Assembly (NCBI RefSeq): GCF_021729035.1
Contig: NZ_JAJSAP010000001.1
Span: 248,001-312,000, forward strand
Direction: 5' to 3'
DNA from: Microbulbifer sediminum
GTDB lineage: Bacteria > Pseudomonadota > Gammaproteobacteria > Pseudomonadales > Cellvibrionaceae
DNA: 64,000 bases
Below are positions 49,183-56,388 of this stretch, in pieces. The notes beneath the pieces were generated by a model. That model did not search any database and was not told the DNA's origin. It worked only from the letters and a program-made list of their open reading frames with translations. Position 1 is the stretch's first letter; each line of letters starts with the position of its first letter. Both the position numbers and the translations under genes were made by a program.

Positions 49183-50445
49183 ATGCCCAAGAAGAACGCT
49201 TTTTATGCCCAGTCTGGCGGTGTTACCGCCGTGATCAACGCCTCGGCCTGCGGGGTCATCGAGGCCGCCCGCGAGCACCACGACCAGATCGGCAAGGTTT
49301 ACGCGGGCCTTAACGGTATTTTAGGCGCCCTGCGCGAGGAGCTGATCGACGTGAGCCTGGAGAGCGTGGATTCCATCACCGCCCTGCGCCACACGCCGTC
49401 CGGCGCCTTTGGCTCCTGCCGCTACAAGCTGAAGAGCCTGGAAGACAACCGGGCCGAATACGAGCGCCTGATCGAGGTATTCAGGGCCCACGACATCGGC
49501 TACTTCTTCTACAACGGCGGCGGCGACTCCGCGGATACCTGCCTGAAAATTTCCCAGCTGTCCGAGACCATGGGCTACCCCATCCAGGCCATCCATATTC
49601 CCAAGACCGTCGACAACGACCTGCCCCACACCGACAACTGCCCGGGCTTCGGCTCAGTGGCCAAGTACGTGGCGGTATCGACCAAGGAGGCGGCCCTGGA
49701 CGTGGCCTCCATGTGTGACACCTCCACCAAGGTATTTATCCTCGAGGTGATGGGCCGCCACGCCGGCTGGATCGCCGCCGCCGGCGCCCTGGCCCAGGAA
49801 CATGAGGGCGACGCCCCGCACATCATCCTGCTGCCGGAAGTGGCCTTCGACCGGGAGAAGTTCCTGACCAAGGTACAGCAGACCGTGGACGAGAAGGGCT
49901 TCTGCGTGGTGGTGGCCTCCGAGGGCGCCCAGTATGCCGATGGCACCTTCCTCGCCGATGCCGGCACCACTGACGCCTTCGGCCACAAGCAGCTGGGCGG
50001 CGTGGCGCCGACCCTTGCCACCATGATCAAGGACGAGCTGGGCCTGAAATACCACTGGGCCCTGGCCGACTACCTGCAGCGCGCTGCGCGCCACATCGCC
50101 TCCGCCACCGATGTGGCCCAGGCCTACGCCGTGGGCCACGCCGCAGTGGAGATGGCACTGAACGGCAAGAACGCCATTATGCCCTGTATCCTCCGCGACA
50201 GCGGCCCGGAATATGGCTGGTCCATCGGCGAGGCGCCGCTATCAGAGGTGGCCAACGTCGAGAAGATGATGCCCAGGGAGTACATCAGCGAGGACGGCTT
50301 CGGCATCACCCAGGCCGGGCGCGACTACCTGCTGCCGCTGATCCAGGGCGAGGACTACCCACCCTACAAGGACGGCGTGCCCCAGTATGCGCGCCTGAAG
50401 AAGCAACTGGTCGAGAAGAAGCTGGAAGAGACCTTCAAAGGCTGA
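49183..50445 (+). CDS. 6-phosphofructokinase, probably pyrophosphate-dependent
   Basis: The start is ATG 49183 (MPKKNAFYAQSGGVTAVINA), with AGGA five bases upstream; ATG 49177 is less well placed. The 420-residue protein is longer than ATP-type PfkA (320) and fits the PPi-dependent group. Lys141 in IPKTVDNDLPHTDN replaces the Gly of ATP enzymes, which points to PPi use. The nucleotide/PPi loop reads NGGGDSADT (residues 111-118), not GGDD or GGDG. Catalytic Asp144 and Asp146 and MGRHAGW are present. It would interconvert fructose 6-phosphate and fructose 1,6-bisphosphate. Confidence 0.9.
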   Translation: MPKKNAFYAQSGGVTAVINASACGVIEAAREHHDQIGKVYAGLNGILGALREELIDVSLESVDSITALRHTPSGAFGSCRYKLKSLEDNRAEYERLIEVFRAHDIGYFFYNGGGDSADTCLKISQLSETMGYPIQAIHIPKTVDNDLPHTDNCPGFGSVAKYVAVSTKEAALDVASMCDTSTKVFILEVMGRHAGWIAAAGALAQEHEGDAPHIILLPEVAFDREKFLTKVQQTVDEKGFCVVVASEGAQYADGTFLADAGTTDAFGHKQLGGVAPTLATMIKDELGLKYHWALADYLQRAARHIASATDVAQAYAVGHAAVEMALNGKNAIMPCILRDSGPEYGWSIGEAPLSEVANVEKMMPREYISEDGFGITQAGRDYLLPLIQGEDYPPYKDGVPQYARLKKQLVEKKLEETFKG

Positions 50446-50474
50446 CGCCAGGGCTCTTTCGGCCCCTGGTAGAG

Positions 50475-50499
50475 AAAACCCCGCAACAGCGGGGTTTTT
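50475..50499. terminator. Bidirectional intrinsic terminator
   Basis: CCCCGC (50479-50484), loop AACA and GCGGGG (50489-50494) are followed by five T on the plus strand and by TTTT on the minus strand. It separates the convergent phosphofructokinase and LLM oxidoreductase genes. Confidence 0.9.
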
Positions 50500-50515
50500 C
50501 CGTTTTGGGGTCTTC

Positions 50516-51520
50516 CTATGCCGGCGGGCGCACCCGCTCCGCCAGCAGCTCCCCGGCAATACGGAAAGACTCCAACCTCGCCTCATGGTCGTACATGGCC
50601 CCGGTGACGATCAGCTCATCCACCCCTGTACGCTCGAGGAAGCGGTCGATAAAGGCGGCCACGCCTTCCCGGCTCCCCACCGCGGTCTCCGCCAGTGCCT
50701 GCGCCACCTGGCGCCGCTCCGCCGCCGGGGCGATGGATTCCGGGTCTTCCACCGGCGGCTGCAGTGGCCCCGGCGTGCCACGGCGCAGGGCAATAAACTG
50801 TTGCTCAACCGACGTCATCAGCCGGCGCGCCTGCGCCCGGGAATCCGCCACGAACACGTTAACGGCCGCCGCGGCGTAGGGGGCATCCAGGTACGCCGAC
50901 GGCTCGAACTGCTCCCGGTACAGGTGCAGCGCCCGGTCCAGCATGGCCGGGGCGAAATGGGAGGCGAAGGCAAACGGCAAACCCAGCGCCGCCGCCAGCT
51001 GCGCGCTGTACAGGCTGGAACCCAGCAGCCAGACCGGCACCCGCAGCCCGGCCCCGGGTACGGCCCGTACCTTCTGCCCCGGCTGCTCCGGTTCGAAATA
51101 GTGCAGCAGCTCCTGCACGTCCTCGGGAAAATGGTCAGCGGCAGTGCTCGGGTCGCGCCGTAGCGCCATCATGGTGGCGCCGTCGGTTCCCGGCGCCCGC
51201 CCCAGCCCCAGCTCCACCCGCTCAGGGTAGAGGGCAGCCAGGGTACCGAATTGCTCGGCGATCACCAGCGGCGCGTGGTTGGGCAGCATCACCCCGCCGG
51301 CGGCCACGCGGATCTTCTCTGTGCCCGCCGCCACATAACCCAGTGCCACCGCGGTGGCCGCACTGGCCACCCCGGGCATATTGTGGTGCTCGGCCATCCA
51401 GAAACGCCGGTAGCCCCACGCCTCCGCGTGTCGCGCCAGGTCGCGGGAATTGCGCAGCGCCCGGCCGGCGTCGCCGCCTGTGGTGATCGGGGACAGGTCG
51501 AGCAGGGAATAGGCTTGCAC
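50516..51520 (-). CDS. LLM-class flavin-dependent oxidoreductase
   Basis: The likely start is GTG 51520 (product [20 protein letters not shown]), with AGGAG five bases before it; the longer frame to 51589 has no ribosome site. The 334-residue protein is of the luciferase-like monooxygenase fold: [20 protein letters not shown] and [19 protein letters not shown] are typical of the MsnO8/YhbW subgroup. These enzymes use FMNH2 and oxygen, or F420 in other lineages, on unknown small substrates. It is probably cytoplasmic and monocistronic. Confidence 0.9.
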
Positions 51521-51833
51521 GGAGACTCCTGATAAACGAAAGGATAACGGTAGTCGCACAGAATAACGCCCCCGGCAGCCCCGGCTCAAAGCCAGTGCCC
51601 CGGGCGCTGCACACGCGTCAGGAACAGAACCAGCGACCGCTATGCCAGCAGCCTGCGATCCCCAGCCCTCTGGCCATGTAGCAACTCCGGCTCAGGTAAG
51701 GCCAGCCCTACCCGCACCCCAGGAGTAACAGGCCAGTTCAGCAGGTGACGCAGCCAGCCCCGCGCCGAGGGCATCGGCAGAGGGAAGCAGGAAAAAGAAA
51801 GACGTGGCCATCCGGCAGACAGCCACCAAGGCC
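51521..51833. other. Intergenic region (313 bp)
   Basis: No convincing coding frame, RNA gene, hairpin-terminator or repeat is visible. It must hold the promoter of the minus-strand LLM gene. The codon pattern of the short frames here is not coding-like. Confidence 0.5.
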
Positions 51834-52025
51834 TCACTTCACCCTCAGGAAACCGATGGCAAAACAGATAGCACCGCCGACCATACCCACCCAGGCTTCC
51901 GCGGGAGAATCGCCGGTGATCGCCCGGGTAAGCTCGGAACTGGCCGAATCGTAAATGTTGTACCCCCATATGACCGCCGCGACACCTACGACCATCAGTA
52001 CGACACCGAGATATTTCTTGTTCAT
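51834..52025 (-). CDS. DUF3185 small membrane protein
   Basis: This 63-residue protein has two membrane helices (about residues 5-22 and 44-60: YLGVVLMVVGVAAVIWGYN and AWVGMVGGAICFAIGFL) joined by a short polar loop. It matches the DUF3185 family, small inner-membrane proteins of unknown function in proteobacteria. GGGAGC stands upstream of its ATG. It lies between the LLM gene and the AT-rich cassette-like island, but its own base composition is like the chromosome. Confidence 0.8.
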   Translation of the reverse strand: MNKKYLGVVLMVVGVAAVIWGYNIYDSASSELTRAITGDSPAEAWVGMVGGAICFAIGFLRVK

Positions 52026-52199
52026 ACAGCTCCCAAATTTATAAATGGCAAATGTGCTGGCAGGACTCTGGCAGAACTGTCACACACTACTCAAATCGGT
52101 CAGGTTACAGCCATAACGGCCATTAGGACGCTATGGGCCGCAACTTTGCCAGGCCGAAGCCTCACTATACAGGGTGTCTACTAAATGTGGGTAAGTCTT

Positions 52200-52278
52200 G
52201 CACCTAACACTCAGAACAGTGGCGAGCGTAGCGAGTCCCGTGGCCAAAGGCCACGACCTGCTTGTCCTTGTTATGCGC
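52200..52278 (-). repeat. Integron attC-like recombination site
   Basis: Read on the minus strand, the 79-base element begins GCGCATAACAAGGAC and ends CTGAGTGTTAGGTGC. The ends carry TAACA/TGTTA as inverted outer boxes, with GTTAGGT (52202-52208) matching the attC core GTTRRRY. Inner pairs GCAG/CTG and GTGGC/GCCAC and a central hairpin CGTGGCC-TTT-GGCCACG complete the imperfect palindrome. The TAA of its first box is the stop codon of the adjacent gene, a usual feature of gene cassettes. No integrase gene is present. Confidence 0.72.
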
Positions 52279-52699
52279 AAATAGGTGAGGTATAGCCAAC
52301 CCGCTTCCAGCTCCATGCATACCACACGATAAACAAAAGAGTTGTAACTTCAACTAACACGAAAAATATATAGAATATCGCTGGATCTCCAACTAAGACC
52401 GATGCCAGTAAGCCAAGGGCATGTAATGTAGCTATTACAACATTTGCCCAACGATTTATTCCATGTTTTAAAACGCGCGAAAGAATCACCATAACCATCG
52501 CCAATTCAAGGAAAATGGCAGCACCAAGCAGCATTTCAGGAGAAGTTAAACTGTTAATCAACTCCGCGTCTTCGCCGCCTGTGCTCGCTTCGCCTCCCAT
52601 CAGGTTTAATACATCAGCATAAATAATATTTAAAATATAAAACACCCACAAAGTGGACAAAATAACCCTTCTGTCAACCGAGCTGTTTTCACTTTCCAT
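52271..52699 (-). CDS. DUF6326 family membrane protein (cassette gene)
   Basis: The start is ATG 52699 (MESENSSVDRRVILSTLWVF) with GGAG eight bases upstream; a GTG at 52708 is possible. The 142-residue protein has four membrane helices: STLWVFYILNIIYADVL, PEMLLGAAIFLELAMVMVIL, NVVIATLHALGLLASVLV and FYIFFVLVEVTTLLFIVWYA. It resembles DUF6326 proteins, whose function is unknown. The gene is A/T-rich compared with its surroundings and its TAA stop lies within the attC-like site, so it was probably acquired as a cassette. Confidence 0.78.
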   Translation of the reverse strand: MESENSSVDRRVILSTLWVFYILNIIYADVLNLMGGEASTGGEDAELINSLTSPEMLLGAAIFLELAMVMVILSRVLKHGINRWANVVIATLHALGLLASVLVGDPAIFYIFFVLVEVTTLLFIVWYAWSWKRVGYTSPICA

Positions 52700-52704
52700 T
52701 TTTC

Positions 52705-52788
52705 TCACTCCGGTTTTTGTAATTTTATGAATTCCTCGTCGTCGAAAACATCAACTTCTGATCTACTCTGAGTTACTTTTTTACGCAT
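52705..52788 (-). CDS. Possible 27-residue leader peptide
   Basis: A short frame (MRKKVTQSRSEVDVFDDEEF then IKLQKPE) lies between the two cassette genes, and its TGA stop is six bases before the ATG of the DUF6326 gene. The GGAG ribosome site of DUF6326 lies inside its last codons. It may couple translation or be chance; its own ribosome site is weak. Confidence 0.25.
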   Translation of the reverse strand: MRKKVTQSRSEVDVFDDEEFIKLQKPE

Positions 52789-52840
52789 GACGCCCACAGA
52801 TCAGCAGTTTACTGCGTCCCTTACCTAAACTTGTTAGGGG
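52785..52840 (-). repeat. Decayed attC-like site between the cassette genes
   Basis: On the minus strand the end of the upstream gene reads CCCCTAACAAGTTTAGG, like the first half of many attC sites. Fifty bases on, GGGCGTCATGCG resembles the closing GGGCGTTATGCG with one T changed to C. GGACGC and GCGTC inside can pair. The closing core is not canonical, so the site may be inactive or the similarity partly accidental. Confidence 0.4.
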
Positions 52841-53285
52841 CGGCTAGCCAGAACGCTAAAGCGCCCACAAGGCCGCACACCCCGAGAAAAAGAACACCCT
52901 GCGTGAACTGAAGCCAGCCAGCTAGCGTGGGTACACCATCCATCATTGTTTGCACGCCATTTACAGACGCGCTTGTTTTAAGCTCTGAATACTTTAGAGG
53001 CCAAGTCAAGACTGCCATTGGCATTGCGGCCAAACAAAAACCAGCACCCAAAGTCGACCACCAGCGAACCAACCGAAACTTGCGCAATACAAAATAGGCA
53101 GGCAAACCAAGCAACAACACAAATCCACCGGACACAAAAAAGCAAATCACAGCGAAATTTTTTGTGCGAACCCATATATATGGATCATCGGCCTCAAATA
53201 TTTGAAATTGACCGTACAGATAACATACGACCATCAGCAAAGCTGGAAATGCTGCTGCTGATATGAACGCGAGCAATACTCTCAT
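52821..53285 (-). CDS. Small membrane protein of unknown family (cassette gene)
   Basis: The 154-residue protein begins MRVLLAFISAAAFPALLMVV and has four predicted membrane helices (about residues 3-23, 43-66, 75-96 and 125-148). An acidic/aromatic external loop (FQIFEADDPYIWVRTKN) follows the first helix. I do not recognise the family. It is A/T-rich, starts six bases after the core heptamer GTTAGGT and ends inside an attC-like box (NKFR stop over TAACAAG). All of this fits a mobile gene cassette. Confidence 0.72.
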   Translation of the reverse strand: MRVLLAFISAAAFPALLMVVCYLYGQFQIFEADDPYIWVRTKNFAVICFFVSGGFVLLLGLPAYFVLRKFRLVRWWSTLGAGFCLAAMPMAVLTWPLKYSELKTSASVNGVQTMMDGVPTLAGWLQFTQGVLFLGVCGLVGALAFWLAAPNKFR

Positions 53286-53290
53286 AGGCT

Positions 53291-53297
53291 ACCTAAC
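53291..53297 (-). other. Cassette-boundary core site GTTAGGT
   Basis: On the minus strand GTTAGGT fits the integron core GTTRRRY exactly and equals the closing core of the attC-like site at 52202-52208. It sits directly before the start codon of the first cassette gene, where a cassette junction is expected. No matching first-half attC boxes are seen to its right. Confidence 0.5.
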
Positions 53298-53330
53298 AGT
53301 TTATTCAATGGCGTGATCATACCTGCCCAT

Positions 53331-53390
53331 ATGCCTATATCTGGGCATGCGTGTCTATATCTAACCATTGGTGTCCATATCTAGCCATAA
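53331..53390. repeat. Three 20-base imperfect tandem repeats
   Basis: ATGCCTATATCTGGGCATGC (53331-53350), GTGTCTATATCTAACCATTG (53351-53370) and GTGTCCATATCTAGCCATAA (53371-53390) follow one another without gaps and share TATCT and CAT at fixed places. They border the cassette-like island. Beyond them, GCGATTACAC occurs twice near 53424-53444. The rest of the 280-base gap holds the nuclease terminator. Confidence 0.6.
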
Positions 53391-53503
53391 GTCAGTCCGA
53401 CAGTCACTTTTATCGCTCTCCTGAGCGATTACACGCGATTACACCCTTATCTGACCCACTGCAAAAAAAACCCACAAACCCAGGTGCTCCATTGCCGGGC
53501 AAT

Positions 53504-53528
53504 AAAAAGGACCCCGGAGGGCCCCTTT
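53504..53528 (-). terminator. Intrinsic terminator of the nuclease gene
   Basis: On the minus strand AAGGGGCCC, loop TCC and GGGGTCCTT pair with one mismatch and one G-T wobble and are followed by TTTATT. It lies 38 bases past the nuclease stop codon. Confidence 0.7.
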
Positions 53529-53565
53529 GTTATTCTGTTCTCTCTGAGATGCAATGGAATACTGG

Positions 53566-56388
53566 CTACCACCCCATATGGGGAATGGTGACCGGCCGGC
53601 TGGCCGAGAACTCGCGGCCGGTGTCGTCGGTGGCGACCAGGGTAATCCGGTAGCTGCCGCCCTGGCCATAGCGATGCCAGCCGCCGGTGCCTTGCTTTAC
53701 AGTGCCGTCACCGAAATTCCACCTGTAGCCCCGCCCATGCGCCCCCTTAGTCCGGGCGCTGACCCACACCCAGCTCAGGAACCGGTGTAACCGGAAGGCC
53801 AGCGGTTGCGTGTCTTTGCCATCCGGCGCATCTACCTTACGGACAATGGTTGTGCTGGCACCGAGATTATCTTCCACCAGCAGGGTTACGGTGTATTCCC
53901 CAGGTACCGTGTAGCGGTGCCTGGGGTTCTGCTCGCTGCTGCTTGCACCGTCGCCGAACATCCACTGCCAGCGGACGATTTCACCATCCACGTCTGTGCT
54001 GCGGTCTGTGAACTGGACATGGCGCTTGCTGGTATCGAATGCGAAATCGGCCTGCGGCGCGCTGTTGGCGCGGGGCAGGTCCAGTTCCACGATTACCGGG
54101 TCGTGGTCGGAGGCGCGGTAGGGGTCGGCGCGATAGAAAGTGTTTATCTGCTCCGCACTTTTATGCTCGGTGTTGTAGTCCAGCGCCCGCGGTTCGTCGG
54201 CATTGACAGGCCATATGGTGGCCGCGGTAACCGATGACGCCAGGGCGGCGTTGGCAAGGGCGTGATCCAGGTAACCCGCCTGGCCGGCGAAGACATAGGA
54301 ATAGGCCTCGCCGCCACCAGAACCGGCCAACAGATCGGTATAGCCCGCATCTTCCAGGGTGGTGATGGGGTTCTCCCTGGCGTAGCTGTTCAGGTCACCA
54401 ATGACCAGCACGCCTTCCGTGCCCGTGCCCGAGGGATCTGCGGCAAGCCAGCTTGCCAGTGCATCGGCAGCCTGGGTGCGGACCAGGTTCCAGCAGCCCT
54501 GGCCATCCCCCTGGTCATCATTGAGGCTGCCGTCGTTGGGGCAACTGCCCTTGGACTTGAAGTGGTTGACGGCTACGGCGAGGGTTCCGCCGCTGGATAG
54601 CTCCTGAAATGCCTGCAGAAGCGGCTGCCGGTTGCTGTCATCGAACGGGTAGCTGTCCAGGGTAACGGCCGGGCCCAGGGGGTGGACCCGGTTACTGCGG
54701 TAGACGATGCCCACCGCAATCTGGTCGCCTCCCAGCTGCGCCGTGGCCGGGTCGACAAATGCATAAGTGTCCGCACCAGTGGCAGCATTCAGCCCGTCGA
54801 CCAGGTCATGGATGGCGCTCCCGGGCCCGTAGCCATCGTTCTCGATTTCCATCAGGCCGATGATGTCCGCATCCATGGCGTGGATCGCGGCAATGATTTT
54901 TTCGCGCTGCCGCTGGAACTCTTCGAGGGTATCGGCACCGCGGTCGGTGGGAAAGCCACCACCCTTGCCGTCGCCATTGAAGTAATTCAGCACATTGAAG
55001 CTGGCCACCCGCAGACTGCCCTCCCCCGGCAGCTCAGGCGCCGGGCTTCGCGCATTGGTGTCACTGAACCGTGGCGCCTCTACCGGGTGGACACGATAGG
55101 CATCGAAACCGTAGCCGATCACCCCACGCAGGCCGCTCACCATTGTGCCGGCGCGAAGGCTGTTGTCCGCGCCCAGCTGCGGCGCCGGATAGGGAATCAC
55201 TGCGGGATTCCGCACCGTGGAACCGTCATCCAGCAGGATACGGTTCAGGTCATTGGCGGCCTGCCGGGCAAGGGCGGCCGAACCGGGCTCGACGACATTG
55301 GTGGGAATAAACAGGCGGCCGGAGGAAAGCTCCACTTCACCGTAACGGGCCAGGTCGTAATTGCCGGTGACGGTCAGGTCCTGCGGAAACTCCACCAGCA
55401 TGCCCTCGAAGCGCTCGGGCGCATCGCCGCTGGCGAACGGCAATACCGGCTGTGCAGCGGTGACACTGTGGCCGCTGCTACAGACTTTCACACCGTCGAT
55501 TCCGGTCAGCTCGGTAAAGCCGTAATACTCGGTAATCACGCCACCGACCCGTACCAGGTCACCCAGTCGCACATCGGTACCAACCCCGTTGTCATAAACG
55601 AACAGGCCTTCAGAACTGGTATCGAGTCCGTCCTGGTCAGCGTCCTCTTCCTGCAGGAAAAAGCCACCCAGTGCAGTCGCGGTATTCTGGAACTCCCCAA
55701 CCACTACAGCCTCTACCTCGATGCGCTCGCCGACGAGCGGGCTGGAGGCACCGGTACCCTGCACGGCGCTGATCAGGGTGGCGGACTCGCCGCACTGGCC
55801 CAATGCAATGCCTCCCCCGCCTGACCCCCCGTGCCCACCGAGACCACCAAAGCTGTCCAGCCCGGCGCTGGACCACTCGAGGGCCGGGTCAAAAGCGGTG
55901 TCGCCGTCGCTGCGGCCGCTGGCCACCCCTTCGTTGCGTCGCAGTGTCTGGTTCTGGGTACCCACCGCGCTGTCACCCCACTGGCTGCCAGGGTCCACAC
56001 CAACCTGGCCGATCACGTCCACCGGTTGTCCCAGCCGGCTCAGCACCACGGCGTCGTCGCCATTGAACAGGCCACCGCCGTAGGTATGGTCCGCCTGCGC
56101 CAGTATGGCCGCATCCGCATCGCGATGGGCAAACACGAACACCTCCCCGTCGGCGAGGGTGCCGGCCAGCGGCACACTGGCGCCCGGGAGGGCGGAACCG
56201 TTGAAGTAGACCTTCACCGCATAGTCCGCCAGATCCACCGGTGAACCGGTGCCATTGAAGATTTCCAGTGCCTTGTTGTCACTGCTGCCCTCGATATATT
56301 CGGAAATCAGCAGGTCCGCGGAAGCCACACCGGGAAGGGTACTGGCGAGAAGTAAAGTGGGCAGCCATGCCCGTTTGAACTGTTTCAT
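53566..56388 (-). CDS. ExeM/NucH-type extracellular endonuclease with PKD domain
   Basis: The 940-residue protein has a signal peptide (TLPGVASADLLIS, cleavage near residue 24). A lamin-tail domain follows (about 25-160, ISEYIEGSSDNKALEIFNGT), then an OB-like region (about 200-430) and an endonuclease/exonuclease/phosphatase domain (about 445-790). Active-site residues are seen in LMEIENDGYGPGS (Glu), VIGDLNSYARENPI (Asp, Asn) and ASDHDPVIVELD (Asp-His). A PKD domain (FTDRSTDVDGEIVRWQWMFG) and a second, weaker one end the protein. Relatives degrade extracellular DNA for nutrients and biofilm release. No GlyGly-CTERM tail is present. Confidence 0.9.
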   Translation of the reverse strand: MKQFKRAWLPTLLLASTLPGVASADLLISEYIEGSSDNKALEIFNGTGSPVDLADYAVKVYFNGSALPGASVPLAGTLADGEVFVFAHRDADAAILAQADHTYGGGLFNGDDAVVLSRLGQPVDVIGQVGVDPGSQWGDSAVGTQNQTLRRNEGVASGRSDGDTAFDPALEWSSAGLDSFGGLGGHGGSGGGGIALGQCGESATLISAVQGTGASSPLVGERIEVEAVVVGEFQNTATALGGFFLQEEDADQDGLDTSSEGLFVYDNGVGTDVRLGDLVRVGGVITEYYGFTELTGIDGVKVCSSGHSVTAAQPVLPFASGDAPERFEGMLVEFPQDLTVTGNYDLARYGEVELSSGRLFIPTNVVEPGSAALARQAANDLNRILLDDGSTVRNPAVIPYPAPQLGADNSLRAGTMVSGLRGVIGYGFDAYRVHPVEAPRFSDTNARSPAPELPGEGSLRVASFNVLNYFNGDGKGGGFPTDRGADTLEEFQRQREKIIAAIHAMDADIIGLMEIENDGYGPGSAIHDLVDGLNAATGADTYAFVDPATAQLGGDQIAVGIVYRSNRVHPLGPAVTLDSYPFDDSNRQPLLQAFQELSSGGTLAVAVNHFKSKGSCPNDGSLNDDQGDGQGCWNLVRTQAADALASWLAADPSGTGTEGVLVIGDLNSYARENPITTLEDAGYTDLLAGSGGGEAYSYVFAGQAGYLDHALANAALASSVTAATIWPVNADEPRALDYNTEHKSAEQINTFYRADPYRASDHDPVIVELDLPRANSAPQADFAFDTSKRHVQFTDRSTDVDGEIVRWQWMFGDGASSSEQNPRHRYTVPGEYTVTLLVEDNLGASTTIVRKVDAPDGKDTQPLAFRLHRFLSWVWVSARTKGAHGRGYRWNFGDGTVKQGTGGWHRYGQGGSYRITLVATDDTGREFSASRPVTIPHMGW

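Follow-up and report, generated by a model that had tools for sequence, protein, structure and literature searches.

A 64-kb stretch of Microbulbifer sediminum DNA (contig NZ_JAJSAP010000001.1, positions 248,001 to 312,000; hereafter the window) carries on its minus strand a short row of two genes that, judged by their homologs and by the recombination sites around them, are integron cassettes. The row is read from high to low coordinates and starts at an attI-type core, GAATAAACTGTTA (53294–53306), at whose G^TTA the cassettes begin and which is the same core as that found about 350 bp before integrase (intI) genes. Ahead of it, imperfect dyads of the form TGGCTAgATATGGCCA stand in tandem (53313–53388) and mark a class B landing site, a type defined below and dispersed in the genus as well as in other families of the order. 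Cassette 1 (52791–53296) holds the gene of a hydrophobic protein of 154 aa (52821–53285) that lacks a Pfam family over cut-off, and is closed by a decayed attC site (52785–52839) with the R' box GTCATGC in place of GTTATGC. Cassette 2 (52208–52790) encodes a DUF6326 protein of 145 aa (52271–52708; PF19851, 62.6 bits with a cut-off of 24) and ends in an attC site (52202–52276) recognized by folding and by a covariance-model match. Beyond it lies a 49-nt remnant (52151–52199) of the left end of an insertion sequence (IS), labeled IS3-like by eye, which in other arrays begins 6 nt past the GTT of attC sites.

The initial annotation of this DNA had described an imperfect palindrome whose TAAC box holds the stop codon of the open reading frame (ORF) at 52271–52708, a heptamer GTTAGGT at 52202–52208 that is repeated at 53291–53297, and two same-strand genes that are A/T-rich relative to their flanks. 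All of these are present, with a GC fraction of 0.458 and 0.455 over the two genes (1-kb stretches) compared to 0.665 and 0.622 in the adjoining outside stretches.

attC sites and the identity of the cassettes

The palindrome was proposed to be an attC site of 79 bases, which is confirmed in place but not in length. A covariance model built from 27 sites of other Microbulbifer arrays finds its sole match in the window, on both strands, at 52202–52276 minus (21.5 bits, E 0.0036), spanning 75 bases. In the alignment behind this model 94.6% of the cells are paired and covariation is 0.644 versus 0.139 in shuffled alignments (0/500), a score that flatters the model because its sites were chosen by eye among 42 non-redundant short candidates. 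Folded as single-stranded DNA, 52197–52283 reaches −17.3 kcal/mol (z −2.39), and 5 of 200 shuffles do equally well; the L stem contains two non-standard pairs. A simpler score based on R box and stem picked up numerous chance matches where the DNA is GC-rich and was dropped in favor of the covariance model, and an Rfam scan of 50000–56000 returned five matches, every one under its gathering score.

With the filters switched off over 51500–53600, the second, decayed attC emerges at the gene junction (52785–52839 minus, 10.3 bits, E 0.087). The position of its R' box reads ATTATGC in the relative in genome G019. Having lost the GTT of this box to GTC, the inner attC is probably no longer functional, and both window genes would therefore move as one unit, if at all. 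The R''/L''–L'/R' pairing at the 3' end by which cassettes are recognized is seen in cassette 2 and has decayed in cassette 1. The usual lower limit for a cluster of attC sites lacking integron-integrases (CALIN), two attC sites, is reached only if the decayed site is counted along with the good one.

Each of the two genes recurs in the array of another species. The cassette 1 protein is 79% identical to a protein in G022, the one genome with matches among the 47 other genomes of the genus, and DNA homology between the two loci starts at the GTTAGG box, ends inside the attC site and gives way to unrelated sequence beyond. The cassette 2 protein has matches in 7 of these 47 genomes, the best at 76% identity (G019) and the others at 31 to 44%; here DNA homology extends from the box at the gene junction to the final box, with unrelated sequence beyond these points as well. 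Both the G022 and G019 loci contain attC-model matches. On these boundaries at att boxes, both window genes are classified as true integron cassettes, in agreement with the form assigned to them initially, and they are not vertically conserved at this place.

The attI-type site at the head of the array

The ~95 nt leading up to the GTT at the left edge of the window array constitute a dispersed repeat. Of 48 Microbulbifer genomes, 35 contain its core, GAATAAA(N)CTGTTA, at a total of 154 sites; the reversed pattern gives 6. The window version, ending in GAATAAA(A)CTGTTA, equals the core of the site ~350 nt ahead of intI genes. From the 154 sites, 100 were read, belonging to 23 genomes that were picked mostly for having few contigs; G018 contributed 2 of its 6 sites, and three further sites were added by hand for grouping. 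These sites fall into two classes when scored with profiles that omit the genome under test, class A being seeded with the 16 intI-linked sites and class B with 21 sites picked by eye. A generic dyad counter failed to separate the classes, whereas the leave-one-genome-out profile scores succeeded. Class A, the ordinary attI type, comprises 60 of the 100 sites, with an adjoining intI in 16 (15 full-length matches and one fragment, in G005) and none in the remaining 44. Class B, the type of the window, has phased dyads before the core and comprises 36 sites, none of them with intI; four sites are unclassed.

Cassettes follow these sites irrespective of class. Within 5.5 kb downstream and on the right strand, attC-like sites are found at 16/16 intI-linked sites, 37/44 class A sites without intI and 29/36 class B sites, where the seven class B sites scored as lacking attC by this narrow pattern include the window site itself; two of the sites scored without attC have just 383 and 95 nt of downstream sequence. 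Overall, 387 attC-like matches around the sites are in sense orientation versus 4 in antisense, and none lies upstream. Before 87 sites that lack intI, a tblastn search with one IntI (E 0.05) covering up to 2.1 kb of sequence detected no remnant of the gene.

The window site thus shares the core of intI-linked attI sites and its cassettes start at the GTT of that core, as expected of an attI, while a secondary genomic site (attG) would have no long sequence in common with attI. By this comparison, the left edge of the window array is an attI-type site, and the initial view of the left heptamer as simply another attC core has to be replaced: it terminates this site. A complete integron, with intI adjoining attI, is not what the window locus holds. 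The own genome of the window, G000, has a second class B site on contig 9 (1168–1264, locus L266) with a changed core, AAAAAGCTGG, followed by a weak attC-model match, and with the same IS left end near the contig start.

The dyads of class B are centered ~82, 62, 42 and 24 nt ahead of GTTA. Hairpin formation was considered as the reason for them and rejected: in an alignment of 28 class B sites (of 36; 5 near-duplicates were removed, as were the three least regular sites), 77.1% of the cells are paired versus 75.0% when shuffled (9/500), with covariation of 0.221 versus 0.198 (21/500). Because pairing and covariation barely exceed the shuffled level, an operator-like symmetry is preferred. 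We infer that a dimeric protein binds the dyads from one side of the helix; as a first guess, this protein may control cassette expression.

The dyad-bearing site is found beyond the genus as well. In an order-wide search of 244 genomes, drawn evenly and with stricter filters, the class B model matched eight: three Microbulbifer, two of a genus designated g75, and one from each of three other genera. The two g75 genomes have 10 and 14 matches, both strands counted. Among 16 extra-genus sites that were read, 15 have dyads and a related core, which the one in G273 lacks; the model contains the core and so disfavors core-less sites by design. Downstream and on the strand of the site, attC-model matches are present in 12 of these 16 loci. 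None of the 16 loci contains intI; an intI over cut-off is encoded elsewhere in four of the five genomes concerned.

Conserved places, changing cargo and shared cassettes

Grouping the sites by upstream homology yields 18 groups of at least two members and 28 singletons. Group 1 spans 10 species, all with class B sites and none with intI, and groups 2 to 5 (8, 7, 5 and 5 species) are equally free of intI in every member; group 0, the main intI place, has intI in 9 of 11 species. Mean identity within groups is 0.71 over the attI stretch, 0.59 upstream and 0.51 over the first 100 nt of the cassette. The latter ranges from 0.46 to 0.56 by group, at the level of random upstream pairs (0.51, sd 0.06), and a single orthologous pair, G017 and G024, has its first cassette in common. 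At G017:C1:2253034 a class A site stands where six other species of the same group carry class B, suggesting that the two site types can replace each other.

The window locus itself was compared with the luciferase-side neighborhoods of 12 relatives (L070–L081). In G018 the neighbors of the window array, its left edge and its right remnant are all kept, with ~4.5 kb of different genes inside, three same-strand attC-model matches of 37.9, 29.7 and 23.3 bits (all skipped by a strict attC pattern) and a transposase-like ORF of 518 aa. Window and G018 are 0.87 identical over the site, 0.63 over the next 94 nt upstream and 0.54 downstream. The same edges thus enclose other cassettes, as anticipated from the proposal that the two proteins are exchangeable cargo. 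The other 11 of the 12 loci have neither an attC-model match nor a landing site at this place; G018 has both. The luciferase-like gene adjoins msrA in G021, G011 and G035 and a nuclease gene in G059. In G015 and G027 both genes lie inside the stretch read and the site is absent, and G030, 80% identical across the right flank, has neither the site nor the nuclease gene there. Dyad-type sites are also seen on the opposite side of the luciferase-like gene, which flanks the window site too, in G001 (L079, 208–291) and in G065 (L044, near 2776). The G065 dyads were considered as a case without a core, which was rejected as the core is present.

Cassettes are furthermore shared between sites of one genome. 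Of 214 same-genome site pairs, 24 have at least 300 bp at 90% identity or more in common downstream, some of which are likely insertion sequences; stretches of ~1.8 kb were set aside as such. In G024, a class B site has as its first cassette a sequence that matches an inner cassette of the intI array at 538 of 539 nt. In G018 two cassettes of the intI array recur at a class A site that lacks intI, and in G017 one cassette of the intI array recurs at a class B site. In the four shared stretches whose ends were read, identity runs from GTTA to the next CGTT and the flanks differ. As an indirect sign, these near-identical shared cassettes suggest that such sites may recombine with attC through IntI. 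A ~403-bp stretch, 99 to 100% identical, recurs at four sites of G008 (1186795, 2052673, 2969817 and 277873), first at three attI sites and internal in the fourth array; with no attC identified for it, this stretch is not counted as evidence that cassettes were transferred.

The IS3-like element, ~1.26 kb with two ORFs, starts 6 nt past the GTT of an attC-type end and is inserted in one orientation in the copies whose flanks were read (window 52151–52199; L085, L086, L087, L088 and others). From this arrangement, it looks like an element that targets attC. Elements that target attC are known from the IS1111 group.

Dispersed landing sites and a proposed integrase acting in trans

Taken together, the window locus is likely to be an integrase-less cassette array with an attI-type head of its own, one of several dispersed landing sites served in trans. 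An IntI encoded elsewhere in the genome would recombine the attC of a free cassette, in its folded form, with the core GAATAAACTG^TTA. A new cassette would thus land first at the attI-type site, while excision and re-insertion would swap the content and leave the site in place. This presumes an active IntI in this genome and action of IntI in trans on dispersed sites. The dyads before the core would bind a dimeric protein controlling expression or recombination. The window array is small and partly decayed, with the IS remnant marking its far end. Candidate enzymes are available: although none lies beside the cassettes, as stated initially, and none of the tyrosine recombinase and intI places found in the genome falls inside the window, three intI genes elsewhere in G000 exceed the curated TIGR02249 cut-off (contigs 11, 8 and 7). 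The contig 11 gene has no stop in its reading frame and the contig 8 gene has one only at the last few model positions. The contig 7 gene (1006–1944) contains an internal TAG. Across the 58 genomes scanned, 45 encode an intI over cut-off. The genome also has 29 attC-model matches at E ≤ 1, on contigs 3, 4, 7, 8, 9, 11, 12, 14 and 15. The notion of a cluster without integrase describes the local array correctly, but that array belongs to a set of such sites that extends across the genus.

Several observations weigh against this interpretation. The window attC is weak: among the 29 matches of its genome it ranks 28th, with E 0.216 in that search. A strict pattern for attC skips the window array, as its attC has GTGTTA instead of GCGTTA. 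G028 has five sites and no intI over cut-off, so that at present no integrase of its own can serve them. In group 0, the intI-linked one, the members from G018 and G030 lack intI, showing that loss of intI does produce such arrays. Finally, homologous recombination between arrays could account for a shared cassette.

The alternative that fares best concerns the dyads, which could belong to something else, such as an array of repeats or operators close to the ends of genes, with no role in recombination and with the core alone being of importance. Such a separation would fit with class A sites, which function without dyads, and with the near absence of covariation in the symmetric dyads. It would also fit with a G273 dyad match that lacks the core where it should lie, and with the altered core of the second site in G000. 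Against it, the core lies at a fixed distance in 36/36 class B sites (a set selected through its core, which accounts for part of this), conservation in class B groups is higher over the dyads than over the DNA ahead of them, and the same dyad–core arrangement recurs in other families. This alternative is rather unlikely.

Alternatively, each array might be a relic, a complete integron that lost its intI and left its cassettes behind, as the two intI-less species at the main intI place would suggest next to the nine with intI. Such an origin is improbable as a general explanation: intI accompanies 0/36 dyad-type sites, tblastn detected no remnant of it in up to 2.1 kb before the 87 sites lacking it, the intI-free groups of 10, 8, 7, 5 and 5 species have first cassettes that differ at random level, and near-identical cassettes are common to intI-linked arrays and intI-less sites. 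Chance insertion of cassettes at unrelated GTT-type sites without any special site, described for attG (PMC12444791, PMC12901181), is highly improbable here, as the left edges share a core of 13–14 nt with intI-linked attI, along with ~100 nt of structure ahead of it, and stand at the same positions in different species, although the 100 sites were selected by core and cassettes at other places lie outside this count.

The preferred reading, dispersed landing sites served in trans, has partial counterparts among known systems. In Xanthomonas, CALINs occupy conserved positions at seven loci (PMC12444791), and the genome of Saccharophagus degradans combines a core integron with five satellite sites, all bearing the same intergenic repeat (PMC2386152); both point in the same direction as the reading of dispersed sites. 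The Microbulbifer arrays resemble CALINs in having cassettes and attC sites without a local intI, but differ in being headed by a recognizable, conserved attI-type site. The excerpts of PMC12444791 and PMC2386152 mention no attI-type heads on the Xanthomonas CALINs or the Saccharophagus satellite arrays; in the latter excerpt, the satellite sites are described by the intergenic repeat alone, with attI and conservation of place across species unmentioned. The attI of sedentary chromosomal integrons has the same core and cassette start, and 44 of the 100 sites are of this ordinary type yet lack intI. In contrast, the window type has phased dyads at positions that read differently in the ordinary type, and adjoins intI at none of its 36 sites. 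With attG the window site would share insertion of cassettes in trans, outside an integron, but it is long and conserved rather than a loose target.

The view of integrase-less arrays so far is that they are decayed integrons. With attI-type heads that are conserved, places that stay fixed across species and cargo that differs, the arrays described here look instead like working parts of a multi-site system. More tentatively, and with somewhat less than even confidence, Microbulbifer and some other families of the order may maintain a distributed integron, keeping many dispersed attI platforms of which the dyad type, a second structural form with an operator-like array, stands apart from intI with a binding protein of its own. 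The combination of core and dyads offers a sequence handle for attI sites outside the clinical classes, and one that allows action in trans and separate regulation of arrays to be tested. If the distributed arrangement is true, one integrase would feed many separately regulated arrays behind host genes.
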